64,000 bases of DNA from Serratia marcescens. GTDB taxonomy: Bacteria; Pseudomonadota; Gammaproteobacteria; Enterobacterales; Enterobacteriaceae. This document shows positions 28,138-46,588 of this stretch, piece after piece (the first letter of the stretch is position 1; every line of letters starts with the position of its first letter). Made by a program: the position numbers and the translations under genes. The notes under the pieces were generated by a model. That model did not search any database, was not told the origin of the DNA, and worked only from the letters and a program-made list of their open reading frames with translations. The DNA lies in the NCBI GenBank assembly GCA_015548865.1, contig JADMXW010000003.1:186001-250000 (forward strand). Reading direction: 5' to 3'.

Positions 28138-28149
28138 TGGGGTCAGGGC

Positions 28150-30252: not shown

Positions 30253-31580
30253 TGAGTGCGCACTATCGTGAATTTCTGCCTGCGGTAATTGAAATCCAGG
30301 ACACCCCCCCCTCTCCTATAGGCAGAGCCATTTTATGGGTCATTATGGGCTCACTTGTCCTTGCCGTAGTGTGGGCAGCGTTTGGAAAGGTTGATGTTGT
30401 GGCTGTGACTCAGGGCAAGGTGGCAGTGAAGGCGCTGTCTCGTCCTGTCAGTACGGCGGTAACGGCAGAAATTGCTAGTGTATTGGTGCAAGACGGCATG
30501 CTGGTTAATCAGGGACAAGCACTCATTAAACTGAACAGCCAGCATCTGGATGAACACGCCGAAGAACTGTGGTTGAGGCAAAAGATAAATCGTTTTCACC
30601 TTGTGCGATTGGATATGCTCAATCGGTATTACAACAGACAAGATTGGTCGAGTGTATTTCCGGAGCGTTACCGGCGTGAAGATACCCCGCTAGCAGATCA
30701 GCTTGCTGCCCTGCTGATAACCGAGATAGAGAATGATCGGTATGAGAAAGGGGTATATGAAAGTAAAAAAGCGGTGTTACATGCACAAATGATGGGGTAT
30801 CGATCTCGCCAACGGTTGGTTGAAGAACAGTTGCAGGTATTGCAAGAGCAATATGATGCGATTGAACGCTTGTACCATAAAAAAATAACCAGTCGCGATA
30901 GCCTGTTAGAGATTAAAAAGAAATATCTTGAGGCGCGCCATGCCGTCGATGGTGCGGCGGCAAACCTGGAAGAGAGCCAACGCAGCCTGGTGCAGTTGGA
31001 ACAGGAGCAAAACAGCACGGAGGCGAAAAAAATCAATTCGGTAACACAGAATAAGACTGAACGTGAACATGAAAATCACCTGCTGGCGAGCCAACTTAAA
31101 CAGATCAATGCTCAGATAGCACAATATACTTTGCGCTCACCTGTTGGGGGCATCGTTGATTCGCTAGCTTTCCGCGATGCGGGAGGCGCAGTCGAACCTC
31201 CCCAGGAACTGCTCAAGATTGTCCCGGTTGATAGTGAGCTCGTGGCAGAGGTGTTGATCAAAAATCAGGACGTGGGCTTTTTACGCGTGGGGCAACCGGT
31301 GACTGTAAAAATTAACACATTTGATTTTACGCGCTACGGCTGGATAGAGGGGACGCTACAGAAAATTTCGGCTGATGCTACTGAGGATAAAGCGCTTGGA
31401 CTGGTTTATCGCGCTGTAATTACATTAAAGAACAGGACGTTGCACGTTGGACGGGATGAATGGCAATTGGAACCTGGTATGCAAGTGACTGCGGAAATCA
31501 AAACTGGGAAAAGGACGTTCCTTAGCTATCTCCTCAGCCCTGCAATGGAGGCGCTGAATGATGTGGGCAAGCAGCGCTAA
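30252..31580 (+). CDS. Type I secretion membrane-fusion protein (HlyD-like)
   Basis: The 442-aa adaptor has one N-terminal membrane helix (about 27-47), a lipoyl half (VSTAVTAEIASVLVQDGMLV), a long coiled coil (about 90-285), the second lipoyl half (YTLRSPVGGIVDSL) and a beta barrel ending near residue 430. It bridges the ABC exporter and an outer-membrane TolC. I use the ATG that overlaps the exporter stop codon (TGATG). There is no TolC gene in this operon; a TolC-like gene of the neighbouring cluster or the housekeeping TolC must serve. Confidence 0.94.
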   Translation: MSAHYREFLPAVIEIQDTPPSPIGRAILWVIMGSLVLAVVWAAFGKVDVVAVTQGKVAVKALSRPVSTAVTAEIASVLVQDGMLVNQGQALIKLNSQHLDEHAEELWLRQKINRFHLVRLDMLNRYYNRQDWSSVFPERYRREDTPLADQLAALLITEIENDRYEKGVYESKKAVLHAQMMGYRSRQRLVEEQLQVLQEQYDAIERLYHKKITSRDSLLEIKKKYLEARHAVDGAAANLEESQRSLVQLEQEQNSTEAKKINSVTQNKTEREHENHLLASQLKQINAQIAQYTLRSPVGGIVDSLAFRDAGGAVEPPQELLKIVPVDSELVAEVLIKNQDVGFLRVGQPVTVKINTFDFTRYGWIEGTLQKISADATEDKALGLVYRAVITLKNRTLHVGRDEWQLEPGMQVTAEIKTGKRTFLSYLLSPAMEALNDVGKQR

Positions 31581-31622: not shown

Positions 31623-32213
31623 TTATTTTTGTCTTTGTGAATAAACCGTTGGTTTAGCAACGGTCATCTGATTTAGCAGTTGCTCCCGCTCTTGCCATAC
31701 ATGAGCAAACGAATCGGTCATCGGCGGATCAAATTTGTGTTTCTTGAGAAAGTACCCGACACCAAGGGCGGCAATGTAGGTTTTATTATCCAGCGGTGTT
31801 TTGTGTTCCAGTAAGGTCTCGATAAATTTTTTACCGCGTTGTGTGATGGCCGGGTCTTTTTCCTGAGAAAGCTTATTGTTACGGGGGATTTGTTGGCAAA
31901 TGCGAGTGGCCGTTCCTCTCAGTCTGGTATTTTTAAAGATGTCATCGACAGAGGTGACAGCAATGCCGATTGCATTGCAGCGGCCTTCATATCCCTCTTT
32001 AGCTGCACGGCGGTACGTGCTTTCTAGACAAGGGTGTTTACCTGTAGTGTGAAACAAATACGTCTCGTGTCTTATCGTCAGTGGTGAGAGTAAGCAGTTT
32101 TCAACTTTGAGCGTCATCTGGGCTATTTTTTTTTGCGGGGCGCACTTTTCCTTGTGTTCATACATGTTAATGAGAGCGCTGATGCTATGAGCTTTGTCGA
32201 GCGGGTTAATCAT
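31623..32213 (-). CDS. Hypothetical 196-aa Cys/His-containing protein
   Basis: I do not recognise this protein. It is soluble, basic and has six cysteines scattered through the chain (KCAP, ENCLL, HPCLES, GRCN, RICQQ) but no signal peptide or lipobox. The C-terminal half looks helical (TQRGKKFIETLLEHK, ALGVGYFLKKHK). The ATG has a good AAGGATGAC site. It lies 152 bp downstream of the M50/HlyD fusion on the same strand and converges on the HlyD-like gene. It could be the last gene of the giant-exoprotein operon or a separate cargo or regulator. It is not an HlyC-type acyltransferase as far as I can see. Confidence 0.7.
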   Translation of the reverse strand: MINPLDKAHSISALINMYEHKEKCAPQKKIAQMTLKVENCLLSPLTIRHETYLFHTTGKHPCLESTYRRAAKEGYEGRCNAIGIAVTSVDDIFKNTRLRGTATRICQQIPRNNKLSQEKDPAITQRGKKFIETLLEHKTPLDNKTYIAALGVGYFLKKHKFDPPMTDSFAHVWQEREQLLNQMTVAKPTVYSQRQK

Positions 32214-32365
32214 GTCATCCTTCCTTGTTGTTCCTTATGAAGGATCAAGTATGCGTTATAGTCAGTTGTTTTCTTCTTGAAAACGTTCCCTATGGTATTG
32301 ATGCTTGAGGGGGAATCACGTCCTACGATATCATTGCCTAATGACGTGTTCTATGGTATCGACGT

Positions 32366-34495
32366 TCAGAATGATAACTCGCGAATCATCACTGCCGAAG
32401 CGAGTTTCCAGCCGCGCACCAGCAGGCTTTGCGCTCCACCTTTCATTACCACTGTGCCACGTAGCACCTGTCCAGGCGCGTGAAAATCGGGCGGGAGCCG
32501 TAGCAGAACACGATATACCGCTTGTTCTGGGTGGAGCTTACGCTGTGCATCACTCAAGGTGGCGATTGCACCACCATAAAGGGATGCTAACTCCGGCACG
32601 TTGTTTAGATCGCGTACGGCAGTGCTGTCAATATCTGTGATGGTGAGGGGCATAGCACTGTGGTTAACATCCTGAGCATAAAACGTACCGGGACTACCGA
32701 TACGAAGGCGCTGCCAATCTCTTTCAGAAACGAAGGCCTCGACCAGCCCGCCGATGGGTTGTGTTATCACCGCCAGCCATTCACCCTGACCGAGCCACTC
32801 GCCTTCAGATAGCGGCGTGGCCATATCTGCTACTATGCCAGTCATCGGGGCGCGTACCGTTAGCTGTTCGGATTGGCGTAACAGCACCTGTAAACGCTGT
32901 TGTGCGGCATCCCGTTCTTGTTTGACGCGCAGGTGATCGCCTGCGGCCTCTTTATTAAATAACTGGAACGTGCTTTGCCACTCCAGTGTGGCAATTTGCT
33001 GCTCCAATTGTTGTCGCTCGTGGGTCAGAGGTTCAGCCGAGAGCTGAAACAGTACTTGTCCGGCCTGAACCGGTTGACCAACCTTTACCTCGATACGAGC
33101 GAGCATGGCAGGTAGCGGCGTGTAGAGGCTACTTTGCTGCTCCGCTCGCAGTAAAGCGGGTGCGTAAACGCTTCGTTGCCAAGGCAGTAGCAGGAGAAGG
33201 AGTACAAGGGCACTGAGCGTCAGGGTGATCATCATATTACGGTTCATACGGTAATCCTTGCGGCGTTGGCTCCACGCGCGTAGCTCATTTACGATGGGCA
33301 TCACCACGAAAACCCCGATCTCCACGGCAAACAGCAGCATGCCCAACAGTTTAAAGGCCATGTGGTAGACCAGAATTGCGATACCGGTAAACAGGAACAG
33401 ACGGTAGATCCACACCGTAAAGGCATAGCCGACCAGCGTGCGTTGCAACCAGCGGGGAAAAACCTCTGGTGGTGCATCCCCAAGGCCAAACAACCACTCG
33501 CGCATCTGCCAGCGGCCCATGGTGAAACCGCGCTGTTGCAAGTTTGGCACCTGCAAGGCATCCGACAGCAAGAAATAGCCATCGAACCGCATCAATGGAC
33601 TCAGGTTGACTGCCAGTGTCATGATCCAGGTTGTGGTTGCCAGCATAAAGGCAGCGCTGCGCAACATGCCATCAGGTAGGAAACTCCAGGCCAAGGTGGC
33701 CCAGGCCGCTAACGCCAGCTCAGTCAGCATACCAGCGGCCCCGATGATTATGCGTTGACGCCGCCGCGTCAGTTTCCATGATCCCGAGGTATCCGTGTAG
33801 AGCATTGGCATCATCACCAGAAATGCTACGCCCATGGTGGCGACGCGCGCGCCAAAGTGTTTACAGGCGTAGGCATGTCCGAATTCGTGCAGGATCTTGG
33901 TAAAGCACAGTGTGAGCCCGGCCAGTGCGGCACCTTCCAGCGTGAAAAAATGCAGAAATGTGTGAGTGAAGGTGTCCCATTGCCGTCCGACGAGGAACAG
34001 CCCCAACACGCCAGCCAATAATGTCAGCGTTAAAAACGGGCGGCGATAAAAGGGGGCGATCCAGGGTAGCGTGGCGCTAAGAAAACGGTCTGGATGCCAT
34101 AAAGGGATACGGAAAAAAAGATAGTTCTTTAATAACATGCGCCACAATGATACCCGTGAACGCGCTACTTGCTGAGAAAATTGCGCCAGTGCCTTATCGC
34201 CGCAAACGCGTGTCAGACTGTTGGTTTGCAGAAATTGGTTAAAATAGTGCACATCACTCTCATCCAACACCAGCGTAGAGCTGTGTTGGATGTCTGCAAT
34301 AATGCGTGCAGCGTTCCCCAAAGACCAGCGAGATAGCATCGCCATCTCTGGCCAACCGATACGAAAATAGAGACCGCGTAGTGGATCTTCCAACGTCCAA
34401 CTGGGAGAACCATCACGGTTCGCTGGGCCGACATGTAAAATCAACTCATCCCGTAACGGGCTGAGTGCAGTGGCTGAAGGGGTTCCCGGTAGCAT
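32366..34495 (-). CDS. M50 site-2-protease/HlyD-type fusion protein
   Basis: The 709-aa protein has three parts. Residues 1-120 are cytosolic, with a winged-helix-like look. Residues about 150-440 are a multi-helix membrane M50 metallopeptidase with the zinc motif HEFGH (203-207) and the distal aspartate in LMRFDGYF (D305). Residues about 455-700 are a periplasmic membrane-fusion module with paired lipoyl halves (ARIEVKVGQPVQAGQVLF and LTVRAPMTGIVADM) around a coiled coil. Such fusions are annotated as putative peptide zinc metalloproteases. The active-site residues are intact. The start overlaps the upstream stop (TAATG). In this cluster it takes the place where an ABC ATPase would be expected. 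Confidence 0.88.
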   Translation of the reverse strand: MLPGTPSATALSPLRDELILHVGPANRDGSPSWTLEDPLRGLYFRIGWPEMAMLSRWSLGNAARIIADIQHSSTLVLDESDVHYFNQFLQTNSLTRVCGDKALAQFSQQVARSRVSLWRMLLKNYLFFRIPLWHPDRFLSATLPWIAPFYRRPFLTLTLLAGVLGLFLVGRQWDTFTHTFLHFFTLEGAALAGLTLCFTKILHEFGHAYACKHFGARVATMGVAFLVMMPMLYTDTSGSWKLTRRRQRIIIGAAGMLTELALAAWATLAWSFLPDGMLRSAAFMLATTTWIMTLAVNLSPLMRFDGYFLLSDALQVPNLQQRGFTMGRWQMREWLFGLGDAPPEVFPRWLQRTLVGYAFTVWIYRLFLFTGIAILVYHMAFKLLGMLLFAVEIGVFVVMPIVNELRAWSQRRKDYRMNRNMMITLTLSALVLLLLLLPWQRSVYAPALLRAEQQSSLYTPLPAMLARIEVKVGQPVQAGQVLFQLSAEPLTHERQQLEQQIATLEWQSTFQLFNKEAAGDHLRVKQERDAAQQRLQVLLRQSEQLTVRAPMTGIVADMATPLSEGEWLGQGEWLAVITQPIGGLVEAFVSERDWQRLRIGSPGTFYAQDVNHSAMPLTITDIDSTAVRDLNNVPELASLYGGAIATLSDAQRKLHPEQAVYRVLLRLPPDFHAPGQVLRGTVVMKGGAQSLLVRGWKLASAVMIRELSF

Positions 34496-35850
34496 TAAAC
34501 CCCCAGCCAGACGCGCAGCGTCGCCAGCGGTTTACGCAGCAGATAAGCGACCAGCAGCGTACGCTTACCGTACAGCTTGGCCGTGCCTTTTAGCCCGACT
34601 CGCCGTTGCGTATCGTCTTCGGTAAAGCGTGCGCGCAGGCGGTAGGCAATCACATTATCTGGCGTGAGCGCCGCACGATAGCCGATTTGCGTCAGTTGCG
34701 CATCCTGAGCGGCATTGGGAGCAACATTCAGGAATAACCGAACGTCTGCACCGGTTTCAAGCGCAATGGCATCCGCAGCAGGCAGTTGGATCTCTAACTC
34801 CACATCTTTCGGATCGGCCACCATCATGATCCGCTCTCCGACTGCCACGGAACGGCCAATCCATTCGCTGGCATCGTCAAACACAGCCACACCGTCGCGT
34901 GGTGAAGTTAACTGCATACGTTCCAGTTGGCGCTGAAGAAAATCTCGCTCACTTTGCGCCTGTTCACGGCGGCTTTGCAGAACAGCCAGACTGGCCTTGC
35001 TGTTAGCATCAAACAGAGCCTGCTGCTGAGCCTGCCGATACTGGGCATCGGCAGTGGCAAACGTCTGGCGGGCGGCTTCTAATCGGTTTTCCAGTTCGCG
35101 TACATCCAACCGTACCAAAGGCTGATTGGCGCGAATGGGTTGGTTGGGGCGCACCAGAATATCGTCTATCACGCCAGCGACAGGTGCACGCACCATTACG
35201 GGCTGATGCGCCACAATCTCTGCTGGGGCCAGCACGGACTGACGCACCGGTATCAGCATCACTAACACCAGTGCCACTGTGCTAAGCAGAAAGATACGGC
35301 GTTTTTTCGGGTGCGTTGGTGTAGTACGGCGTTGTTTATGCAAACTGGACCAGGCGTGAGCGTAAGGTTCTGCCAGTGTTTCCAGTAGCAGGATCTCCGG
35401 TGCCAGCCATGCTGTTTCGCGTGCCAAAATCAACGTGAGTGAGGTATCACCCTGAGCAGATCGCAATGGCAACCACAATACGTGTTCGGGTAGATGCTCA
35501 TGCCATAACGCCTGATCGTCAACGGGCAGATCCTGACAGCGTACTGTACCGCTCAGGCGCTGTTCTGCCTGCCATTGGCGGCACCACCGGCTAAAGGTGC
35601 TGCAAAAAGGCGCATTGTGATCGAGTGATGCCAACCCGGAAACGGCCTCTAATCGCTGCTGATCGTTGCTCCACAGCAGCGCCTGGCGATATTTCACCAG
35701 CGAATGGGTTTCATTGACGATGAAAAATGCCAGTTCATCGGGTGTTTCACGCGCTCTGGCACGTCGTTGCAGTTGCAACAATTCAGCCAGCAGCGCGAGC
35801 TGTGGGTCTTGCTCTGCATTTGCTGCAGGCGCGGCTGTTGGGCGATTCAT
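34495..35850 (-). CDS. Membrane-fusion adaptor with GAF-like cytosolic N-domain
   Basis: The 451-aa protein is split by one membrane helix (about 186-205). Residues 1-180 are cytosolic and resemble a GAF-type sensor fold (FFIVNETHSLVKYRQALLW, HVLWLPLRSAQGDTSLTLIL). After the helix come the lipoyl half VMVRAPVAGVIDDILVRPNQ, a short coiled coil (about 245-310) and a beta barrel (LTSPRDGVAVFDDASEWIGR onward). Adaptors normally have only a few residues in the cytosol, so the large inner domain is unusual and could sense a signal or contact the M50 protein. It overlaps its upstream neighbour by ATGA and its downstream neighbour by TAATG. Confidence 0.85.
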   Translation of the reverse strand: MNRPTAAPAANAEQDPQLALLAELLQLQRRARARETPDELAFFIVNETHSLVKYRQALLWSNDQQRLEAVSGLASLDHNAPFCSTFSRWCRQWQAEQRLSGTVRCQDLPVDDQALWHEHLPEHVLWLPLRSAQGDTSLTLILARETAWLAPEILLLETLAEPYAHAWSSLHKQRRTTPTHPKKRRIFLLSTVALVLVMLIPVRQSVLAPAEIVAHQPVMVRAPVAGVIDDILVRPNQPIRANQPLVRLDVRELENRLEAARQTFATADAQYRQAQQQALFDANSKASLAVLQSRREQAQSERDFLQRQLERMQLTSPRDGVAVFDDASEWIGRSVAVGERIMMVADPKDVELEIQLPAADAIALETGADVRLFLNVAPNAAQDAQLTQIGYRAALTPDNVIAYRLRARFTEDDTQRRVGLKGTAKLYGKRTLLVAYLLRKPLATLRVWLGV

Positions 35851-36590
35851 GGCATTGTGCCATCTGGCGGTGTTATTTGTGCGACACCACTCATGCCTGG
35901 CAATAATCCTGCGCTTGGCTGGGATAAACGACCGAACACTTTCACTGACTGGCTCACGGGTTCCACAGAAGATGATATGCGGCTTATTTCCGCCGGGTAG
36001 GATAGCCCGGTTTCATCCAGCGTAACCTGGAACGAGTTACCTTGCTTCAGCCACACCAGCCAGCGAGAGGGTACGATCATCTCCAGCTCAAAGGCACTGT
36101 CGTCATAGATTGCCAGCAGTTCTTTGCCTTCGGGTACGGATTCCCAACGCTTGACTTTGGTTTCTGTAACACGACCGGAGAAGGGGGCTTTGATCGCACA
36201 ACGCTGCAACATAGCGCGATTCACGCCGCTCTCCGCCTGTGCCATCGTGACGGTAGAACGCGCTTGATCCACCTCGGAAAGGCTGATGGCATTGAGCTTG
36301 TCGAGGCGGTCAGCGATCGCCAGTTTTTTACGTGCGGCGTTTTCCGCCGCAGTGGAGTAGTTCAATTTCTCACGCAGCACGGTGCAGTCGAAGGTCAACA
36401 GGGTATCCCCCTGTTTGAAGTGTTCGCCTTCTTTCACCGTAATATCTGTGATTTTTCCAGCGATTTCGCTCGACAGTACGCTATAGCGCTGTGCACTAAG
36501 CTGGACGCGAATATCCCCTTGTGCGGCCTGCCCCCACAGGGGCAGTGCCAGTGCGCTAGCCAGCAGCAGAGGTCGCATCATGCTGATCAT
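35847..36590 (-). CDS. Short periplasmic adaptor (RND/HlyD type)
   Basis: The 247-aa protein has a signal peptide (about 1-23, AQA) and then a minimal membrane-fusion fold: lipoyl halves at about 38-62 and 128-150 (CAIKAPFSGRVTETKV), a short helical hairpin and a beta-barrel domain. It should connect inner-membrane components to the TolC-like protein whose gene lies just upstream (TAATG overlap). A GGGAGG ribosome-binding site precedes the start. It is shorter than efflux adaptors (about 380 aa) because it lacks the membrane-proximal domain. Confidence 0.88.
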   Translation of the reverse strand: MISMMRPLLLASALALPLWGQAAQGDIRVQLSAQRYSVLSSEIAGKITDITVKEGEHFKQGDTLLTFDCTVLREKLNYSTAAENAARKKLAIADRLDKLNAISLSEVDQARSTVTMAQAESGVNRAMLQRCAIKAPFSGRVTETKVKRWESVPEGKELLAIYDDSAFELEMIVPSRWLVWLKQGNSFQVTLDETGLSYPAEISRISSSVEPVSQSVKVFGRLSQPSAGLLPGMSGVAQITPPDGTMP

Positions 36591-38353
36591 TACCGCGAAC
36601 CTCCCGCCTGAAGGGATTGCAGATTATCCCACATATCGGTGTTGACGACGCGATACGGTTTTGCTGCGGTCGATGCAGTTGTGGGCGCGGGTACCATCAG
36701 AGTAGTGGCGGTTGGCAAGGGGGCTGGGTGGGGCGTAACGACGGGTGCCGTGGGTGCAGCAGCCAGTGACAAACGTGGCACGGCGACACCACCTTTTTCC
36801 AGCGTACCCGTAGTGTGGGCGATGCTGTTGCTCAGTGCAGCCAGGCTTACATCGTTGACGTTATCCGGTAACACATCCAATCCAGCCGCCTGATATACCG
36901 CCCCCAGTGCGTTTTGTACGTCGGCAAAGCTGCGATCGCGTGCACGCGTGGTGAGAATAGTTTCCGTACTCACCCGCACCTGTTCCATCTGTGTTTCTGC
37001 CCGATGCTGTACGCTCAGTGCGGTCTGATTCAGAATACCACGCTGGATGCGCGCCAGTTCCTGGTAGCGGCCAAACATGCGCGCACTTTGTTGATACTCC
37101 TGCCAGGCCACATTCACCTGTGTCAGCACGGCCATGCGCAGTGCCTGACGACGTACTTCTGCCAGATTTTCATTGGCTTCACCGGCACGTTTCACCGACG
37201 ACCAGGACAACACGTTAAGCAGGTTGCCGCTGACCTGAACTCCGGCGCTGGCCCATTGTTGATTAACCAGATAGCTGTTGCTGTCACTGTTCACGCCAGC
37301 AAACAACGAGACACCCGGCAGCAAGCGCAACAGCGATTTACGGGTTTCCAGCACGCTGTTTCGTGCCAGATAGCCCTCTTCGCGCACTTCTGGGCGTTTT
37401 ACCATGGAAAAGTTTTCCAGATCGTCGAGTGAATAGGCGATCTTGGGTGCTACCAAACTGCTTTCATTGGGTACAACAACGTCAAACTTGCTGGACGGCG
37501 GCAGGTTCATCAGCGCAGCCAGACGTGATTTCGCCACCACCAGATCGCTGTCGACGATCTCAAGCTGGCGTACCATCTCCAGCATGTTTTTCTGGAAACG
37601 CAGCGCTTCTACGGGGGCCAGCAGGCGTTGTTGTTCAGTTTGGCGCGCATATTCCAGCGTCTGGCGCGCCTGCGCCAACGCAGTCGTGACTTCTGGCTGT
37701 AAACGCTGGGCAGTGGCGGCTTCCCAGTAGGCGGTACGTACCTGCCGGGTGATATCGGCCACCACACGGCGGCGCCGCTCTTCTGCCGCCAGTGACTTGT
37801 TGGCCTGCACCTTGGCGTTAAAGTAGCTGATGCCGAAATCCAATACGTTCCAGCTTAAGGACAAATCGGCGGTGCGCGTGGTTTGATCCTGGCTGGTGGA
37901 AGGTTCCAGAGACTCTCGCCCGCTGGAGATTGATTTACTGCTGGACGCCGCAACGCTGTCGCGCGTCTGCATCCCTGCGCGTGCGGTCAGTTTAGGCAGC
38001 AACATATCCAGATTCTGGACGCCGAGCAGGTTATCTTCCATTGCTTGTTCCAGCAGTGCCACACGTTGCTGTAGGTTGTATTTCAACGCACGTGCAATGG
38101 CTTCTTCCAGTGTAATGGTACCGCGTACCGGCTCCTGATTGGCGAACATCTGCGTTCTGTCGCTGAGCGCTTGCACCACTTGCTGCTCTGTGGTGATGGG
38201 GTCCGGTTTGACTGCGCATCCTGCGACACTCAGGCAGGCTAGGGCGACGGCAATGCGCAGTGTTTTCGTGCCTGAAAGCCGTTGCAGCATGGCAGTGGTG
38301 GACTGATTGTGGTGTTGCTGGTCATCCCAGAAAGTGGCTGTGTGCTGATTCAC
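36590..38353 (-). CDS. TolC-family outer-membrane lipoprotein
   Basis: The 587-aa outer-membrane channel has a lipobox (SVAGC, C46) after an unusually long n-region. It then has the TolC/OEP repeat structure of long helices and short strands (about 85-500), for example ALKYNLQQRVALLEQAMEDN and AWQEYQQSARMFGRYQELA. A proline/alanine/threonine-rich tail (about 530-587) follows, which is not typical. The start appears to be a GTG with AGAGGG upstream; an ATG 21 codons later has no ribosome-binding site. It should form the outer-membrane conduit for the giant protein and perhaps for the RTX protein as well. Confidence 0.9.
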   Translation of the reverse strand: MNQHTATFWDDQQHHNQSTTAMLQRLSGTKTLRIAVALACLSVAGCAVKPDPITTEQQVVQALSDRTQMFANQEPVRGTITLEEAIARALKYNLQQRVALLEQAMEDNLLGVQNLDMLLPKLTARAGMQTRDSVAASSSKSISSGRESLEPSTSQDQTTRTADLSLSWNVLDFGISYFNAKVQANKSLAAEERRRRVVADITRQVRTAYWEAATAQRLQPEVTTALAQARQTLEYARQTEQQRLLAPVEALRFQKNMLEMVRQLEIVDSDLVVAKSRLAALMNLPPSSKFDVVVPNESSLVAPKIAYSLDDLENFSMVKRPEVREEGYLARNSVLETRKSLLRLLPGVSLFAGVNSDSNSYLVNQQWASAGVQVSGNLLNVLSWSSVKRAGEANENLAEVRRQALRMAVLTQVNVAWQEYQQSARMFGRYQELARIQRGILNQTALSVQHRAETQMEQVRVSTETILTTRARDRSFADVQNALGAVYQAAGLDVLPDNVNDVSLAALSNSIAHTTGTLEKGGVAVPRLSLAAAPTAPVVTPHPAPLPTATTLMVPAPTTASTAAKPYRVVNTDMWDNLQSLQAGGSR

Positions 38354-38458
38354 CGGGTTATTCCCTCTTGTAATGGGTTTATTCTCTGTCGCTTACAGAT
38401 TGATTTTCTTGCAAGTGACTGAATTTAGGGTTAAATGACGCAATGTGTCCTGCACGTA

Positions 38459-41400
38459 TCAAGCGCGCAGACGGCTCAATTCACTCAGTGCTGCCAGCAG
38501 AGCATCTTGCTCGGCACGTGGTGCGCTAAGTTGTTCGTTAAACGCCGTTTTTCCCGTGGGCAATGCGGCTTCAATGCGACTGTCCTGCACGCTTTCCTCT
38601 GCCAATGACGGGAGCGGGGCGAAGGCTCCGCGATCCGTTGGCATGCCTACCGTTGTATCTTGTCCGGTTTGCAACGTGACAGGTATTGTTCGGCGCACGC
38701 CATCGGCAGCCTGTGCTGTCAATGCTAACTGGATCTGGTTTACCTGCACTGCGTCAGGATCGGTGATGCGTAGCTGACCACTGCGAGCATCGAACTGAAG
38801 CCAGACGGGCAGAGGACGTCCATTGGCTAACTGCAATGACAGCGATACGCCACTATCACGTGTGCTGAACAGGCGTGAAGGCAGCGTAAACACCAGGGCG
38901 CCAGTGCTGTCGCGCAGCAAAGCGCCTTGTAGACTGCTGTAGGCAGATTCCAGTGAGGTGGTTTGACCGGGCACGCGCTGGAACAAAGACGAGTCCGCAG
39001 CCGGGGCAGGTATGCTGTCTCGCTGGGCTGCATTGCCCCGAGCGGCAAAATTCACCGTTTCCAGCGGCGGCAGCAGCGTTTGCATCACCGGATCGAGTAC
39101 CCACGGTGCTGCTGCCCGTTCTGATGCTGCGTGAGGCAGTTGCACCGAGAAGTCCGTAGGCAGCACATGGGATGTTGCTATCGGCGAGTCTGCTCGAGAC
39201 AGCGCTGTCACGATCGCGCTCAACGGCTGTTCCTGTTCCCGTTCATCCAGTGCGTCAGGCATGTTTAACAGCGGGCTGGTCAGGATGACAGGGGCCGGTA
39301 CTGTGTTATCCGGCGTCTCCGGTTGCGGTTCGACAGTGGCTTGTGCCACGTTCACGATAACGGAGTGCGTGGCCTGCGCTTTGCCATCGCTGGCGACGAT
39401 GGTCACGGTAAACTCACCCGACGCCGTGGGTGTGCCCGAAATGGTGCGGGTTGCCGCATCAAAACTCAGTCCGTCCGGCAAGCCGCTGACGTTCAACGTC
39501 AGGCTGTCGTTGTCGGCATCGGTAAACAGGTTTTCCGGCAGGGTGTAGTGATACTCGCTGCCTGCTTGCAGTGCGCCCAGGTTTAGCCCGGCGGCGTCGT
39601 TGTACACGGGAGCGCTGTTATCCGGTTCAATATCGGGTGCTTGCGCTACCGTAACCTCGACGGCGTGGGTGGCCTGCGCTTTGCCATCGCTGGCGACGAT
39701 GGTCACGGTAAACTCACCCGACGCGGTGGGCGTACCCGAAATGGTGCGGGTTGCCGCATCAAAACTCAGTCCGTCTGGCAAGCCGCTGACGTTTAACGTC
39801 AGGCTGTCGTTGTCGGCATCGGTAAACAGATTTTCCGGCAGGGTGTAATGATACTCGCTGCCCGCTTGCAGTGCGCCCAGGTTCAACCCGGCGGCGTCGT
39901 TGTACTCGGGAGCGCTGTTTTCGGGAACATCGCTGCCTTTGAATGTGATGACGGTTTTTTCGTTGAATTCGGTCTTAAGATCCTGCCGCCAGTCTCCCTC
40001 CTCATAAACGGTCAGGCTCACCGTGCGGCTACCTGTAGCGTCTGCGTCGCTGTGGCTGTAGGTAATACCATCGATCAACTGTGCTGTGCTGGCACCGTCC
40101 CGCGTCACATATAGGGTAACGATGGCAACGCCATTGCTGACACTGACGCGGTATTCCATGTTGCTTTCACCAACAAAAACCTGGTAGTCAATGGTCTTAT
40201 CGAGCGAGATTTCTCCACCTTCTACGTGCAGAACATCACCTGCACTGGCTGGGGAGACGGAAATCTCTATCCGATGGATTTTTTGGCCAGCTTCAACGGT
40301 GTCAATGACCGTATTCTTGAACAGTGTGATCGCATCGCTGCCCGGTGTGTAGGTGGTGTTTACGGGCTCAGAGCTAACCACTGCCGGATCGTTAATTCCG
40401 ATGAGATTCACCACGGCAGTGAACTCCGCCGTATGGTCTTGTCCATCATTGAAGTTGATACGGAAAGTGGCCTCAGCGCCGGCAAGCGTCGGGTCGTTGC
40501 TGGTAGATTGGTAAGCAATGGCTCGCAGCACCTGCTGTGCTTCAGCTTGGGTGACACCCACCAAGAAGGTGATGGTCAGTTTACCATTGGTATCAATCGT
40601 GACATCGGCGATGGCCTTATCCCCTGACCAGATCTTGCCATCCTCTGCCAGGCTCAGGCCACTGTCAGAAGAAAGTCCAAATTGATCGCCAGCCTGTGCG
40701 CCGCCGGTGCGTTCAATCACTAGCGTGGCACCTTGATAGCTGCTTTGATCGTTGAGGGGGGCAGACAACGTACCGCCAGGAAGCAGTGCGACTGCATCGC
40801 CTCTTTCCGTAAAGGTTTCGCTGGTGGGAATGAGATCGAGAACAATGATCCCTTCTGGTGTACCGTAATTCAGGGTTCCCGTGAGGTATAACTGTTTTCC
40901 ATCGGCGCTGAATGAAGCGTAGCGTACCTCGTTTAACGTTGTGCCATTGTAGTTGGCAATATCGCCAAAGCCTTCCACCGCCTGAAGCTGTGTCAGGCTG
41001 CCGTCGGTAGCGCGCGCATAGAGAATGACGCCATAAGTGTTGTAATTGTCACTACGACCCAGTTCTCCGGTGATCACCACGGAGGTGCCATCGGGGGAGA
41101 CCAGCACTTGTTTGACGCTGGTGACACCTTCGCCAATCGTCAGGGTTGATGTTGCGGTGAGCGTGCCATCTTGATCTACCGTGAAGATATGCAGCGATTG
41201 GTTATTATCTACTACATACAGTGAGTTGCCGTCGGGTGAGACGCTCAGGGCGGAGGCGTAATAGCCGTCTTCACTGGTCGTCGAGCCCGCGATGGATTGC
41301 TTATAGGTGAGTGTACCGTCGTCACCCACACTGAACCGGCTCACCACTGTGTCGCCACCTGACGTGGCTACAAACAGTGTTTTGCCGTCCGGCGACAGGG

Positions 41401-44400
41401 TCAAGGCATTGGCTCCATCAAGCTGTAAGCCACTGTCTCCCGCATCAGTAAAGGAGCCACTTGACGTCAACGTATCGCCACTGCGGGTAAACACCAGCAG
41501 GCTGTCGCCACTCGTGATGTAGACCTTGTCGCCGTTAGCCAGCACATCGCGTACCATGCCGAGATCGCCACCAACAGTGCCGATTTCATGTAAATCGCTG
41601 GCATCAAACAGGGCAATATTATCGGCTCCCATCACATAAACACTGCTGCCATCGCTGGAGACGCGCACTTGTGCAGCACCCGTCAAGCCAGTGATGTCAG
41701 TGCTTTGGGTCATGTAGAGCTTGCCGTCGGTATCTCGCTCAACCAGATAAAGAACGTTAGACTCAACGTTCTGTCCGGTACCCGTTGTTTCGTCATAAAC
41801 CCAATCGCTGTGAGTGCGTACCAGGTAGATTTTATCGCCCACCACCGTGATGCCTTGAACGCCAGTAAAGAGAGAGTTGCCTTTCTCGTCTTTCACATCG
41901 AACAGGCTGTCATAATCGAGTGCGCCCGTTTCGGCCCCAAGATTTGGTGTCAGGCGCGTATCGCCTACAGTGACCGTGCTGTGGATGTCCAGCGTTGTGG
42001 TGTTATTGTCGGCATCAACCAGTTGTGTCAGCGTAACGGTGACGGCACCTTGCGTAGCATCGCTGCTGACTACCTGATAGTGGATATTGTCAATCAGGGT
42101 GTTTACGGCATCAGGGGTATTGCTGCTGCTATTCAGTGTGAGGGTGATGGTGGTTGTGCCATCGTTAACTGCTACGTGATACTGATGACCTTGCTCTGTC
42201 ACACCAGCCGCGCTGGTGGCGGTTAACGGGATCGTTTTCCCATCAATGACCAGTGCGTCATTGGCGCTGGAGCGGTTTACTGTGAAGGTTAATTCAGAGA
42301 GCGCAGAGCCCGCGTTGCCGAGCCGCGTATCCACGTTATCGAACAGATCCACCGCGCTGGGCAGTCCGTTGGGCGTAATGGTGGCAGTGGTTTGTTTACC
42401 TTCTGCCGTCAACGTGGGTTCAACGGGCGAGTCTGTTAACAGCAGTGCTACGGCGGTTTCGGCAGATTTGCCGCCGCTATCGCGCACGGTGATACTCAGG
42501 TCAACCCGTGCGGGTGATTCTGCGTTGGTGTTAAGGTAAGTGACCTGCTGCAATACCTGATTGGCGGTGGCGTTGTCCACATTAGCGCTAAAGGTGATGG
42601 TCAGTACGCCATCCTGAGTAGCGAACGTGGCAATGGTCGCCTTGCCTTGCATGACTTTGCCGTTTTCCAGACGCAACCCGGAACCATTTTTAAAACCGAA
42701 TTGATCGTCTGCCGAGGCACCGTTGGCACGATTAACGGTCAGCGTAGTGCCTTTATAATCCGTTATTTGATCTGCATCGACATCAGAGAAGTGTAATCCC
42801 TCTGCGAAGGTGGTCGAGCCATTGGTGGTGTAAACCGCATTCGGTAATGCCGAAAGTATCGCTAATCCGGTGTCGCCGGAACTGCGCCCACTGTAGAGAT
42901 TGAGCCCATCAGCACTGACCGCAATGTGATTGGTGCGCGATCCGGTACTGAGGGCGCTGACATACGTCAGCGCACCGGTAACGGCATCGCGGCTGAATAC
43001 CAACACTGACCCACCGTTCATACCGGCATAGAGTGCGGTACCATCCTGTGAGATAACCAACTCACGCACGGAAAGCGCGTTACTGGGGGTGTAGCCCTTA
43101 TTATAGAGATCCACCGTGCCGACATAGGTCAAACTGCCGTCGCTGGCGTTGCGACTGAAAATGGAGAGGGTGGCTTGTTGCCCTGAGCCGACATAAGCAA
43201 AATTGCCGTCGGGGGAGAGGGTAATATCTTGCAGATTGGCTAAATAGCGATTATCGCTTGGGCGCTCAGCACTGTTTGGATCGGCGCTAATACTGGCATC
43301 ATTGATCGCGCCGACGTAAGTCAGTTTTCCAGTTTGCGTATCGCGAGAAAGCACCGTGATCATGCTGTTACTGCTGTTGGCAACGTAAACAGATTTACCG
43401 TCACCAGAGATGACAATTCCGCTTGGGGCATTCATGCCGAGCGTTGCTGAGCCACCTTGATATGCATCTAAATACGTGAGGGCGCCGGTATTTGGATCGC
43501 GAGAGAATTGTGCCAACACCGATTTACCGGTGCTGCCATCAACTGTCGTCAAGCCGTTGATGGTATAGAGTGACTTTCCGTCGGCTGAAATCACGATTTC
43601 GGTAATCTGTGCATCCAGCCCTGTGACACCCCCTACGCCTTGGGTTGCCACGATGCCTGCGTAGGTGTATTGGCCGGTTGTTGCATCGTAGGTGAAGCGC
43701 ACCAGTGAGTAGGTGGTGGCATCGCCGCTGTGCCCAGCGACGTACAGATCGCTGCCATACATCGCCATGGTGGTAATGCTGTTCAGGCCGTTAGCCTCAA
43801 TCGTCACCGTCTCAGGGTTGTCACTCTCGCCCTGAATAAAGGTTTGCACCAAGGTTAATTCGCCTGTCGTGCTGTTACGGCTGTAGATACGCAAGGTGCT
43901 GTTTCCACCCGCATTGGCCCCATCACTGCCGCTGACCAGCAGCGTTTTGCCATCAGCAGACATTGCGATCGCCGTGACGTATTCGCTGTATCCGCTCAGG
44001 GTACCGTTGTTGTAATAGAGCGTGGCATCAGGATTAATGACACTGTTTTGCCAGCCAGGTGCATTATTAATGGCCAACGCGATGGTGGCACTGATAGCAA
44101 TGTCGCCGGTGTCGTTTCCTTCACCCTCAGTGCCACCGTTATCGCGCAGGCTGGTCAATGTGATGGTACGTGTGCCAGTGGTAGCCTGTTCGGTATCGTT
44201 CACGTAGGCGATGCCGTTGACCAACGTTTGTGCCGCAGCGGCGGTCACGCCTGCTTCATGACTAATGACCAGTGTTCCTGTGCCGTAGCTGCGGGTGTAC
44301 GTATAATGGTAGTCACCGGCCTGACCGCTGCTGTCGCTCGCCAGATTGATGCGGGTGCCTGCGATGACAACAAATTCGTTCGCGGCGTTATCTACGCCGT

Positions 44401-46588
44401 CAATGGTGAGTGTCAGTTCGATAATCGACTGGCCAATTTCACCCGCACTGACGGTCGTGTTGCTAAACGGATTGACCACTGTGCCATGGGTATCATAGGC
44501 CTGATTGTCAATCGCGGTGGCATCGAGCGTTGGGGCGGTATTGTTGGTGATAAGCACATCCAATGTGACGGTCTGGCTGTCTGCCTTACCGTCATTGGCG
44601 CGCAGGGCCAGTTTGACGAGAGTGCCATTGGTGTCGGTACCTGTATTGCTGTAGGTAATTTGGTGCAATACGGCATTGGCATCGGTTTTACTGGCACCCG
44701 GCAGGAAGGTGAGGGTGAGGGTGCCAGCGCTTTGGCTGAAGGTGGCGATAGCGGTATCGCCTTTCATCACTTTCCCGTCGATTAGTTGCAGGTCACTGCC
44801 TTGCGCAAACCCGAACTGGTCGTCGGCTTGTGGGGTGGTTGCACGGGAAAGCGTCAGCGTGGTGCCGTTATAATCCCCATTGCCTTCAGCCAGGCGGTCA
44901 TTGTTGGCATCAGACAGCGTCAAGCCGTGTGCCAGCGTAATTTCTCCACCGCGCAGCAGCGTTTGGATAGGCGAATAGCGACTGATGCCGTTGCCCGAAA
45001 CCAAAATGGAGTTGCCATCGGCGGCGACGGCGATGTCACCACCGTTAGTAGTGCCGGTACTACTGCCCGTGAGCGCCAAGCTGCCATTTTCGCCCACGGC
45101 GTAAACGTTCAGGGTGCCCGCAGTGGTCGCGGCGTAAAGCTGAGTGCCATCGCTGTTAAGCGTCAAGCTGCCGATGTTATCGCTGGTGACGGTGTTGATT
45201 AGCGTCAGCGTATTATCGCTGCCTAACTGGTAAATGGCGATATTGGCGCTGGTCGGGTCACCGACATACAGCAGCTTGCCATCTTTGGACGTGGCCATGG
45301 CATAATCGACAGGACTGTTTCCCGTTTTTGTCAGCGAGATTCCGTCGATCAGCGTCAGGATGCCCGTATCGGGGTTACGTTGGTAGACTTTGAGTTCATG
45401 GGGGTAGAAGAACAGTGCACCGCTGTGAAGGACATAGACGTAATCACCAGAAGTCGCAATCATGCCGTTACGGTGTGCGTCCAGTGTTTGTACCCGTGTT
45501 AAAGCCCCTTCGCTATCGCGATTGTAGACATAGACTTCACGTCCGTAGTTACTGGTCGCATCGACATAGATCTGTTTGCCGTCATCGGAAATTACTAACC
45601 CGCCCGTTGAACCGCCGCCCTCCAGTGCGGTGGTGCTGACATAGGCCAACTCGCCGTCGTTAACGCTCAGGTGAATCAGATTACCATTACCGGCAATGGT
45701 ATAGACCGATTTGCCATCGGCACTGACCACCAAATGGTTAACGGTGCCGAGATTTTCAACCACCAGGCTCTGCTGCTGGGTTAAACGACCGGTGCTGTCG
45801 ACAGCAAATACGGTGATGGTATTGTCGGAGCCGGCGGCATACACATGGCTTCCATCCGCGGAGTAGGCGATTTCCGTCGCTTTCGCCAGCGTGCCTGCGG
45901 TAAAGGCTTCCGCTTCTTGTAATGTGTTACCGGAAAGGTCCGGTGCTACGTTCACCTTACTGTCAATTGTCACGGTGGAGTGAATATCCAACGTTGCCGT
46001 AGCATCTTGATCGCTCAGGCTTTTCAGCGTAACGGTGACATCACCGCTCGCCACGGTGTTGTCTAGCGGTTTATAGGCAATGCTGTCGATCAGTTTGGCA
46101 ACATCTGCGGGTTGATAAGCCTCTGACGATGCAATACTCAGCGTGATGGTGGTTGTATCACCGCTGACGGTGACTTTGTAGCTGTAACTGTTGTCGTGGG
46201 TAGCATCTGTCCCAGTGGTTGTGGGCTTCAACGCAATTTCACTGCCATCAATCATCAGCGCTTGATTGGCTCCGGAACGATCGACGGTAATGACGAGTTC
46301 TGTCAGTTCTTTGCCGCTGCTATCAACACCGGTATCAGTGGATACGGAAACGTTACTGAACAGATCCACAGCGGCGAAGCCGGTATCTCCATCATTGATC
46401 GTGAGCGTGCCGTGAGCGGGGGTGGCATCCACACCGGGCGCACTTTCGGTAGGCGCAATAACCTCTGCGGCAACAGCATCTGCTGTGGCGACGGCGGCGG
46501 CGTCAAACATCATGCGCGGTTCCAGCACCCATGCCTGACGGGGTGGGCGTGCAGGTGCATTACCGGCTTTGGAACGGAAAAATGTCAT
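38459..46588 (-). CDS. Giant LEPR-motif beta-propeller/Ig-like exoprotein
   Basis: The 2709-aa protein begins with a basic stretch and the motif WVLEPRMMFDAAA (about 20-32), the LEPR-type N-terminal tag of very large exported proteins; no Sec signal peptide follows. Three blocks of YVTN/lactonase-like beta-propeller repeats lie at about 220-530, 870-1250 and 1550-1930 (SADGKSVYTIAGNG-type blades). They are separated by cadherin/Ig-like modules (FTVNRSSANDALVIDGKTIP type). Two nearly identical 100-residue Ig domains follow at about 2215-2415. The last 290 residues contain one more Ig-like unit and a low-complexity tail without RTX repeats or a sorting motif. It is likely a surface adhesin or matrix protein. 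The start has AAGGAC. Confidence 0.9.
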   Translation of the reverse strand: MTFFRSKAGNAPARPPRQAWVLEPRMMFDAAAVATADAVAAEVIAPTESAPGVDATPAHGTLTINDGDTGFAAVDLFSNVSVSTDTGVDSSGKELTELVITVDRSGANQALMIDGSEIALKPTTTGTDATHDNSYSYKVTVSGDTTTITLSIASSEAYQPADVAKLIDSIAYKPLDNTVASGDVTVTLKSLSDQDATATLDIHSTVTIDSKVNVAPDLSGNTLQEAEAFTAGTLAKATEIAYSADGSHVYAAGSDNTITVFAVDSTGRLTQQQSLVVENLGTVNHLVVSADGKSVYTIAGNGNLIHLSVNDGELAYVSTTALEGGGSTGGLVISDDGKQIYVDATSNYGREVYVYNRDSEGALTRVQTLDAHRNGMIATSGDYVYVLHSGALFFYPHELKVYQRNPDTGILTLIDGISLTKTGNSPVDYAMATSKDGKLLYVGDPTSANIAIYQLGSDNTLTLINTVTSDNIGSLTLNSDGTQLYAATTAGTLNVYAVGENGSLALTGSSTGTTNGGDIAVAADGNSILVSGNGISRYSPIQTLLRGGEITLAHGLTLSDANNDRLAEGNGDYNGTTLTLSRATTPQADDQFGFAQGSDLQLIDGKVMKGDTAIATFSQSAGTLTLTFLPGASKTDANAVLHQITYSNTGTDTNGTLVKLALRANDGKADSQTVTLDVLITNNTAPTLDATAIDNQAYDTHGTVVNPFSNTTVSAGEIGQSIIELTLTIDGVDNAANEFVVIAGTRINLASDSSGQAGDYHYTYTRSYGTGTLVISHEAGVTAAAAQTLVNGIAYVNDTEQATTGTRTITLTSLRDNGGTEGEGNDTGDIAISATIALAINNAPGWQNSVINPDATLYYNNGTLSGYSEYVTAIAMSADGKTLLVSGSDGANAGGNSTLRIYSRNSTTGELTLVQTFIQGESDNPETVTIEANGLNSITTMAMYGSDLYVAGHSGDATTYSLVRFTYDATTGQYTYAGIVATQGVGGVTGLDAQITEIVISADGKSLYTINGLTTVDGSTGKSVLAQFSRDPNTGALTYLDAYQGGSATLGMNAPSGIVISGDGKSVYVANSSNSMITVLSRDTQTGKLTYVGAINDASISADPNSAERPSDNRYLANLQDITLSPDGNFAYVGSGQQATLSIFSRNASDGSLTYVGTVDLYNKGYTPSNALSVRELVISQDGTALYAGMNGGSVLVFSRDAVTGALTYVSALSTGSRTNHIAVSADGLNLYSGRSSGDTGLAILSALPNAVYTTNGSTTFAEGLHFSDVDADQITDYKGTTLTVNRANGASADDQFGFKNGSGLRLENGKVMQGKATIATFATQDGVLTITFSANVDNATANQVLQQVTYLNTNAESPARVDLSITVRDSGGKSAETAVALLLTDSPVEPTLTAEGKQTTATITPNGLPSAVDLFDNVDTRLGNAGSALSELTFTVNRSSANDALVIDGKTIPLTATSAAGVTEQGHQYHVAVNDGTTTITLTLNSSSNTPDAVNTLIDNIHYQVVSSDATQGAVTVTLTQLVDADNNTTTLDIHSTVTVGDTRLTPNLGAETGALDYDSLFDVKDEKGNSLFTGVQGITVVGDKIYLVRTHSDWVYDETTGTGQNVESNVLYLVERDTDGKLYMTQSTDITGLTGAAQVRVSSDGSSVYVMGADNIALFDASDLHEIGTVGGDLGMVRDVLANGDKVYITSGDSLLVFTRSGDTLTSSGSFTDAGDSGLQLDGANALTLSPDGKTLFVATSGGDTVVSRFSVGDDGTLTYKQSIAGSTTSEDGYYASALSVSPDGNSLYVVDNNQSLHIFTVDQDGTLTATSTLTIGEGVTSVKQVLVSPDGTSVVITGELGRSDNYNTYGVILYARATDGSLTQLQAVEGFGDIANYNGTTLNEVRYASFSADGKQLYLTGTLNYGTPEGIIVLDLIPTSETFTERGDAVALLPGGTLSAPLNDQSSYQGATLVIERTGGAQAGDQFGLSSDSGLSLAEDGKIWSGDKAIADVTIDTNGKLTITFLVGVTQAEAQQVLRAIAYQSTSNDPTLAGAEATFRINFNDGQDHTAEFTAVVNLIGINDPAVVSSEPVNTTYTPGSDAITLFKNTVIDTVEAGQKIHRIEISVSPASAGDVLHVEGGEISLDKTIDYQVFVGESNMEYRVSVSNGVAIVTLYVTRDGASTAQLIDGITYSHSDADATGSRTVSLTVYEEGDWRQDLKTEFNEKTVITFKGSDVPENSAPEYNDAAGLNLGALQAGSEYHYTLPENLFTDADNDSLTLNVSGLPDGLSFDAATRTISGTPTASGEFTVTIVASDGKAQATHAVEVTVAQAPDIEPDNSAPVYNDAAGLNLGALQAGSEYHYTLPENLFTDADNDSLTLNVSGLPDGLSFDAATRTISGTPTASGEFTVTIVASDGKAQATHSVIVNVAQATVEPQPETPDNTVPAPVILTSPLLNMPDALDEREQEQPLSAIVTALSRADSPIATSHVLPTDFSVQLPHAASERAAAPWVLDPVMQTLLPPLETVNFAARGNAAQRDSIPAPAADSSLFQRVPGQTTSLESAYSSLQGALLRDSTGALVFTLPSRLFSTRDSGVSLSLQLANGRPLPVWLQFDARSGQLRITDPDAVQVNQIQLALTAQAADGVRRTIPVTLQTGQDTTVGMPTDRGAFAPLPSLAEESVQDSRIEAALPTGKTAFNEQLSAPRAEQDALLAALSELSRLRA
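39361..39620 (-). repeat. Ig-domain tandem repeat, unit 2 (C-terminal copy)
   Basis: This 260-bp segment matches 39661-39920 at 246 of 260 positions with an exact 300-bp offset. It encodes the second copy of a putative-Ig (He_PIG-like) domain ending ASDGKAQATHSVIVNVAQ. Confidence 0.85.
39661..39920 (-). repeat. Ig-domain tandem repeat, unit 1
   Basis: First copy of the 300-bp tandem unit in the giant gene. Most differences from the other copy are synonymous and the two encoded domains are almost identical, pointing to recent duplication or gene conversion. Confidence 0.85.

Follow-up and report, generated by a model that had tools for sequence, protein, structure and literature searches.

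A conserved gene set pairs LExR-tagged giant proteins with an M50 protease-HlyD fusion and may form an export and processing system

Within a 64,000-nucleotide stretch of Serratia marcescens DNA (GenBank assembly GCA_015548865.1, contig JADMXW010000003.1, positions 186,001 to 250,000; this whole stretch is called the window below), we studied a set of five genes that lie on the minus strand and span window positions 32366 to 46588. They encode a giant exoprotein with a short N-terminal tag, a TolC-like protein, two HlyD-type adaptors and a fusion of an M50 protease with an HlyD domain. The initial annotation had described these co-directional genes, and the overlaps of the last four (TAATG, ATGA and TAATG), as we find them in the sequence. 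The start that it gave for the set, 31623, belongs instead to a sixth open reading frame (ORF) outside the core set. This ORF (31623 to 32213, minus strand, 196 amino acids) matches no family and is 57% to 64% identical in all three same-genus genomes compared. The features of the set are listed here in the order of transcription.

38459..46588, minus strand: giant exoprotein of 2,709 amino acids, with the LExR tag, beta-propeller (lactonase-type) repeats and He_PIG (Ig-like) domains (Pfam)
46502..46525, minus strand: codons of LEPRMMFD, residues 22-29 of the giant, the N-terminal LExR tag
38528..38554, minus strand: codons of GKTAFNEQL, the C-terminal motif of the giant
36590..38353, minus strand: TolC-like outer-membrane lipoprotein, with OEP in two stretches (2.2e-19)
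35847..36590, minus strand: short HlyD/RND_mfp adaptor with a Sec-type start, judged by eye (TIGR01730, 2.7e-34, above cut-off)
34495..35850, minus strand: transmembrane (TM)-anchored HlyD adaptor of 451 amino acids, with an N-terminal part of about 180 residues
32366..34495, minus strand: fusion of RRE-like, M50 (S2P) and HlyD domains, 709 amino acids
34211..34453, minus strand: RRE/PqqD-like domain of the fusion, residues ~15-95, three strands and three helices
33188..34042, minus strand: M50 membrane domain, residues 152-436, with seven predicted TM helices (AlphaFold2 helices and positive-inside count)
33875..33889, minus strand: HEFGH zinc motif, residues 203-207
32420..33178, minus strand: periplasmic HlyD domain, residues ~440-692

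HlyD parts are thus present in three of the five products. The M50-HlyD protein matches HlyD_3 in Pfam at 4.7e-18 and Peptidase_M50 at 27.0 bits, slightly below the cut-off of 27.2. By eye, a lipobox-type start (VAGC) is recognizable in the translation of the TolC-like gene, and an internal ATG at residue 22 is a possible alternative start. As had been proposed, the Pfam scan finds no ATPase among the five proteins, and the giant has neither RTX repeats (Pfam) nor a Sec signal, because it contains no 19-residue stretch above the hydropathy limit used and no hydrophobic N-terminus. Nor does the scan detect a barrel family in any of the five, and type V export, which combines a Sec signal with a beta-barrel or a partner barrel, therefore does not describe the set. 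Orthologues of the giant occur in the three same-genus genomes compared.

The recurrence of this gene set is far beyond chance, since the same order (first gene, TolC, HlyD, HlyD, M50-HlyD) is found in all seven plasmid loci opened among 73 plasmid records in which tblastn detected an M50 relative; in 54 of the 73, the match spans 80% or more of the protein. Six of the seven loci begin with a long gene; the first gene of the Magnetospirillum locus encodes 493 amino acids. Azospirillum brasilense is also among the carriers of the set. A scan of genome contigs gave at least 361 M50 relatives, of which the best 80 (L020-L099) were kept. Where 4.5 kb or more is available upstream of the M50 gene (64 loci), the TM-anchored adaptor is found in 62, the short HlyD adaptor as well in 56, and all three partners in 50. 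Relatives of the set extend to Nitrospirota and Thermodesulfobacteriota. Several versions have features of their own. The first gene of a Variovorax locus (L019) is 48.7 kb long and encodes about 16,000 amino acids, annotated as a tandem-95 repeat protein. On plasmids of Burkholderia anthina and Kosakonia cowanii (L015, L016), the set is flanked by genes annotated 'tail fiber protein'. The L017 version occurs at 99% identity or more in 24 of 5426 complete Escherichia coli genomes, with at least 80% of the query covered in 22 matches and with 21 of the 25 places plasmid-borne.

The tag that the initial annotation called a LEPR motif is real, but its pattern is LExR and not strictly LEPR, with the consensus LE-x-R-xx-FD(G/A)A. 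Long ORFs downstream of M50, picked by position from a list that includes several unrelated genes or wrong frames, show LE-x-R-xx-(F/L)D, the third residue being P, Q, S, A or K. In 24 of 24 aligned tags the L, E, R and D are invariant; because the rows were partly chosen by motif, a profile of the tag was tested on other genomes. The profile matches all 33 genomes chosen, including 24 that contributed no row to its training. In 28 of the 33, the giant lies within 8 kb of M50 (same-contig status was judged from positions), and in the other five (L027, L031, L033, L069, L077) the ORF upstream of the set reaches the edge of the contig or locus. The giant may be upstream of tolC or downstream of M50, and in some genomes it is on the opposite strand. 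One ORF in the position of the giant (L053) has a Sec-like start in place of the tag. DUF4347 follows the tag in eight of nine giant N-termini scanned (for example, L094, L088 and L141), in both branches of the family described below, and is not present in the window giant. Conserved SHG and YGC suggest a caspase-like Cys/His pair, with exceptions such as L054.

In surveys of sampled genomes, which include some of the same genomes in both samples, tag and protease are found together almost invariably. The phylum sample of 396 genomes has 61 with the tag, 64 with an M50 match of at least 500 bits and 61 with both, and the class sample of 281 has 13, 13 and 10, respectively (Fisher's exact test, 9.6e-69 and 1.1e-13; the sampled genomes are related, so these values overstate independence). 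Every one of the 61 tag-bearing phylum genomes therefore holds M50, and 61 of the 64 M50 genomes hold the tag; the conserved link between LEPR proteins and this machinery that the initial annotation proposed to look for is present. The two lie on one contig and no more than 40 kb apart in 41 of the 61, and many of the other 20 are many-contig assemblies. Of the three class genomes with the tag and no strong M50, G178 has a weaker match 2.7 kb away, G186 has a fragment on another contig, and G284 has no M50 at E <= 1e-30. In G565 the M50 gene is split into two pieces that score 348 and 268 bits, so that this genome was classed as weak, and in G418 a long ORF beside the set carries a LERR tag that the profile missed.

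The M50-HlyD protein was modeled with AlphaFold2 at a mean pLDDT (predicted local distance difference test) of 90.7. Because fold searches with the whole model were swamped by HlyD matches, its N-terminal domain was folded alone, and the predicted fold is of the winged-helix, RRE-like type. Matches to the PqqD family by sequence are weak in 2 of 61 window-branch members, the window protein not among them, and fall below the gathering score in 9 of 10 members of the sister branch; a sequence search of the PDB with the window-branch N-terminal profile gave no match. Judging from the predicted fold, it is plausible that this domain is of the leader-binding type and serves as the receptor for the tag. 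The membrane domain has the HExxH and NxxPxxxxDG motifs of M50/site-2 proteases, and H203, E204, H207, N297, P300, R303, D305 and G306 do not vary across the 82 homologues compared. The cytosolic loops contain 3, 3, 4 and 4 positive residues, the first three periplasmic loops 0, 0 and 0, and the opening 25 residues of the HlyD part 2. Together with the seven TM helices, this pattern indicates a cytosolic N-terminus and a periplasmic HlyD part, and the RRE-like domain and the active site are predicted to be on the cytosolic side. In this topology HExxH would be near the cytosolic end of TM2, as it is in known site-2 proteases. Two family models, daptide_HExxH (7.2e-40) and the YydH/LiaK model NF058609 (7.2e-9), match below their cut-offs.

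Both surveys also turned up a sister branch of the M50-HlyD family (~165-390 bits), whose giants carry LEPRxLLSAD at the N-terminus. A SecA-like ATPase gene (open frames of ~530-840 amino acids) adjoins M50 in 18 of 28 sister loci (L136-L164). Two loci, L134 (at the base of the window branch) and L140 (a fragment), were left out before this count, and weak or fragmentary matches (G137, G164, G186, G214, G263, G349 and one of G365) were not fetched. An extra SecA occurs in seven of eight sister-branch genomes, compared with 1 of 34 window-branch genomes. In a 121-row tree made by a quick method, the 95 window-branch rows split off with support of 100, L133 and L134 lie at the base, and none of the 17 SecA-linked rows is among the window-branch rows. 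The term 'ATPase-free' used in the initial annotation is true of the gene set in the window, but the sister branch has a SecA-like ATPase beside M50. As for a second term, GAF-adaptor, GAF_3 is found (2.7e-8) in one sister-branch adaptor, but Pfam detects no GAF domain in the 451-residue window adaptor. Because a profile comparison of the adaptors of the two branches aligned only their HlyD halves, the label is plausible at most for the window protein. The basal locus L134 has a variant order (hlyd-gaf-tolc-long ORF-M50) in which the long ORF encodes 843 amino acids with a LEQR tag; Pfam sees no HlyD part in its M50 protein, and the ABC gene adjoining M50 encodes ABC-F-type domains.

Two groups of neighboring genes in the window should be mentioned. 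A TadE/G-like (Flp pilus) gene (46638 to 48257, minus strand) stops some 50 bases short of the giant gene, and its synteny extends to three same-genus genomes; the two genes may be co-transcribed. On the other side, a separate type I operon (26476 to 31580, plus strand) is convergent with the set and encodes an RTX protein, HlyB and HlyD, with no TolC gene among the three. Its HlyB and HlyD are kept at 79% to 94% in the three same-genus genomes fetched, and its RTX protein is kept only in part.

The set shares parts with several known systems. With type I secretion (HlyB/HlyD/TolC and the LapA type) it has in common a TolC-like channel, HlyD adaptors and a giant repeat substrate that lacks a Sec signal. 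It differs in that no dedicated ABC exporter is encoded and the inner-membrane part is the RRE-M50-HlyD fusion. The window giant also gives no RTX match in Pfam, and RTX repeats are not a universal feature of type I substrates. RND tripartite efflux pumps differ from the set by their pump gene, which is absent from the five proteins and from the annotation of the set in the seven plasmid loci opened. Maturation of ribosomally synthesized and post-translationally modified peptides (RiPPs), as by the epipeptide protease EpeP/YydH or the daptide protease, involves an RRE-like fold and a profile-related intramembrane zinc protease; the set differs in its giant partner, in the fusion of the protease to an HlyD adaptor and in the lack of any small peptide or modifying enzyme seen. 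LEPR-XLL proteins (NF012209, LEPR-8K) share the N-terminal LEPR tag, and the listed model names no machinery. The window tag, LEPRxxFDAA, scores 14.8 bits against this model, below the curated cut-off of 17, which was passed by four of eight proteins scanned, all from the sister branch. SecA2-type accessory Sec systems, like the sister branch, have a short extra SecA-like ATPase, encoded by open frames of 655-762 amino acids in the sister-branch genomes; in the sister loci fetched, the SecA-like gene adjoins M50-HlyD and HlyD genes. The nearest functional hint for the set is EpeP, an M50 protease believed to cleave an epipeptide and to export it (PMC10885120). Our search of the open-access literature, with subscription papers outside it, gave no description of this system, and the set is not described in the available portions of PMC7730722, PMC10868602, PMC12322963, PMC4257694, PMC12710340, PMC10885120, PMC8939145, PMC10715155 and PMC10202637. 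The key new element is the RRE-M50-HlyD fusion. The earlier proposal of a distinct secretion or processing system is partly supported, in that a distinct, conserved gene set is linked to LEPR proteins.

The gene set and its conservation, the co-occurrence of tag and M50, the catalytic residues, the predicted RRE fold and topology and the SecA-like gene of the sister branch, all established by sequence or computation, are consistent with a system dedicated to exporting and processing giant surface proteins, an interpretation that we favor with moderate confidence. In this scheme, LExR-xx-FD(G/A)A near the N-terminus of the giant would act like a leader, and the RRE-like domain at the N-terminus of M50-HlyD would grip it in the cytosol. 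A SecA-type motor would then drive the giant across the inner membrane, by means of the dedicated SecA-like ATPase in the sister branch and housekeeping SecA and Sec in the window branch. The intramembrane zinc protease would probably clip the tag region, which would free the giant from the inner-membrane complex, and the three HlyD-type proteins and the TolC-like lipoprotein would form the conduit through the periplasm and outer membrane. Given the SecA-like ATPase encoded next to M50 in the sister branch, we consider a SecA-type motor (perhaps housekeeping SecA), lost or borrowed in the window branch, likelier than no ATPase.

Several points weigh against this scheme, in addition to the relatedness of the sampled genomes noted above. 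Its motor step is the weakest, because 10 of the 28 sister loci lack the SecA-like gene (two of these, L146 and L162, stop at a contig edge) and a second SecA is absent from 33 of 34 window-branch genomes. Housekeeping SecA, moreover, normally needs a signal peptide, and the giant has none. Three class genomes (G246, G247, G277) have M50 matches of at least 500 bits and no tag match; the M50 gene of G277 and the upstream ORF of G246 run off their contigs, and M50 of G247 has no partner in the 14 kb fetched. Outside the 13 strong M50 genomes of that sample, G214 and G349 have M50 fragments and no tag match. No tag was seen in the stretches fetched from G381 and G416, which have the set; G416 has two sets with nothing tagged beside either, and the complete set of G381 (L172) adjoins a long ORF that, by eye, resembles a two-partner (FHA-type) exoprotein. 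The M50 frame is full-length and unbroken in just two of four same-genus relatives, G003 and G004; that of G002 has one internal stop and that of G001 is in two pieces, and tolC of G002 also matches in two pieces. Finally, the binding of the tag, its cleavage, export through the conduit and the energy source are inferred steps of the scheme.

The C-terminal ends of the giants bear on a different order of events, in which export would be type I-like and begin at the C-terminus, an ABC exporter such as the neighboring HlyB (28150 to 30252) would act in trans, and M50-HlyD would only grip and cut the LExR end last, as a release protease, in the manner in which LapG releases LapA. We regard this as unlikely. 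The TolC and HlyD parts resemble type I components, and two-step systems of the LapA type hold and later cut the N-terminus of the substrate (PMC7730722). Many giants end in G(K/R)xx(F/L)xxQ(L/I/F), a pattern shown by 21 of the 39 long ORFs located upstream of the machinery (a few of which are not giants), by 40 of 1561 ORFs of the background and by 39 of 1950 shuffles. The excess is partly by construction because the pattern was drawn from these same sequences. Such a motif would fit C-terminus-first export equally well. As a universal signal it is weak, because 18 of the 39, some not giants, lack it, and by eye it is missing from seven of eight complete-frame giants downstream of M50. The window genus keeps HlyB and HlyD next to the set, and among 34 genomes with the set, 31 have a type I-type ABC match: 16 over the LssB cut-off, 11 more with a full-length LssB match of 465 to 577 bits below it, and 4 over the PrtD cut-off, PrtD having been run only on the seven genomes without a long LssB match. 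By comparison, the window HlyB scores 535 bits with LssB. In G062 (Corticibacter populi), G076 (Nitrospira) and G083 (Alteromonas lipolytica), no ABC over either cut-off was found among the candidates scored, the HlyB model not being run; LssB scores reach at most 367 bits in G062 and 339 in G076, and G083 has nothing at E <= 1e-100. The ABC exporter as a member of the operon was rejected, as the initial annotation had anticipated: no ABC lies inside the set in any of the best 80 loci (phmmer with one HlyB domain, E <= 1e-6). ABC ORFs occur in nine of these loci, in five of them within about 2.5 kb of the set. The closest of them, on the M50 strand in L056 and about 330 bases beyond that gene, comes nearest to ABC-F by NCBIfam; the others come nearest to drrA, PQQ-system, potA and urtE ATPases, and none is like a type I exporter.

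The same three genomes, the absence of an ATPase from the set and the lack of a spare SecA in 33 of 34 genomes speak for M50-HlyD itself being the inner-membrane gate, with proton motive force or folding outside the cell pulling the chain and no ATPase in the window branch. The EpeP link to peptide export and the NF058609 match point the same way. We are aware of no 7-TM protease fold that offers chains of this length a protein-conducting path, and the sister branch adds a SecA-like ATPase; this explanation appears somewhat less probable still than export through an ABC protein. The broader claim of a new secretion class, in which RRE reads the LExR leader and M50-HlyD passes and cuts giants with no set-encoded or dedicated ATPase in the window branch, is doubtful to about the same degree as the type I-like route. 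That the set exports other cargo, such as a small peptide or drug, and that the giant is merely a neighbor, we consider very improbable. NCBI annotates parts of the set as efflux adaptors, and M50 relatives mature small RiPPs, but co-occurrence with the tag is near perfect with the giant upstream or downstream alike, and the gene tables of the seven opened plasmid loci, which are incomplete, list no radical SAM enzyme.

If the favored scheme of dedicated export and processing is correct, the existence of sister branches with and without a SecA-like motor makes the energy supply directly testable. It would mean that a TolC-type conduit can have a protease, not an ABC pump, as its inner-membrane part. 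It would also give a function to the LEPR tag and a route to the surface for giants that lack both RTX repeats and a Sec signal. Bacteria would then be reusing the leader recognition of small peptides to sort and export proteins of up to 16,000 residues, as annotated in Variovorax.
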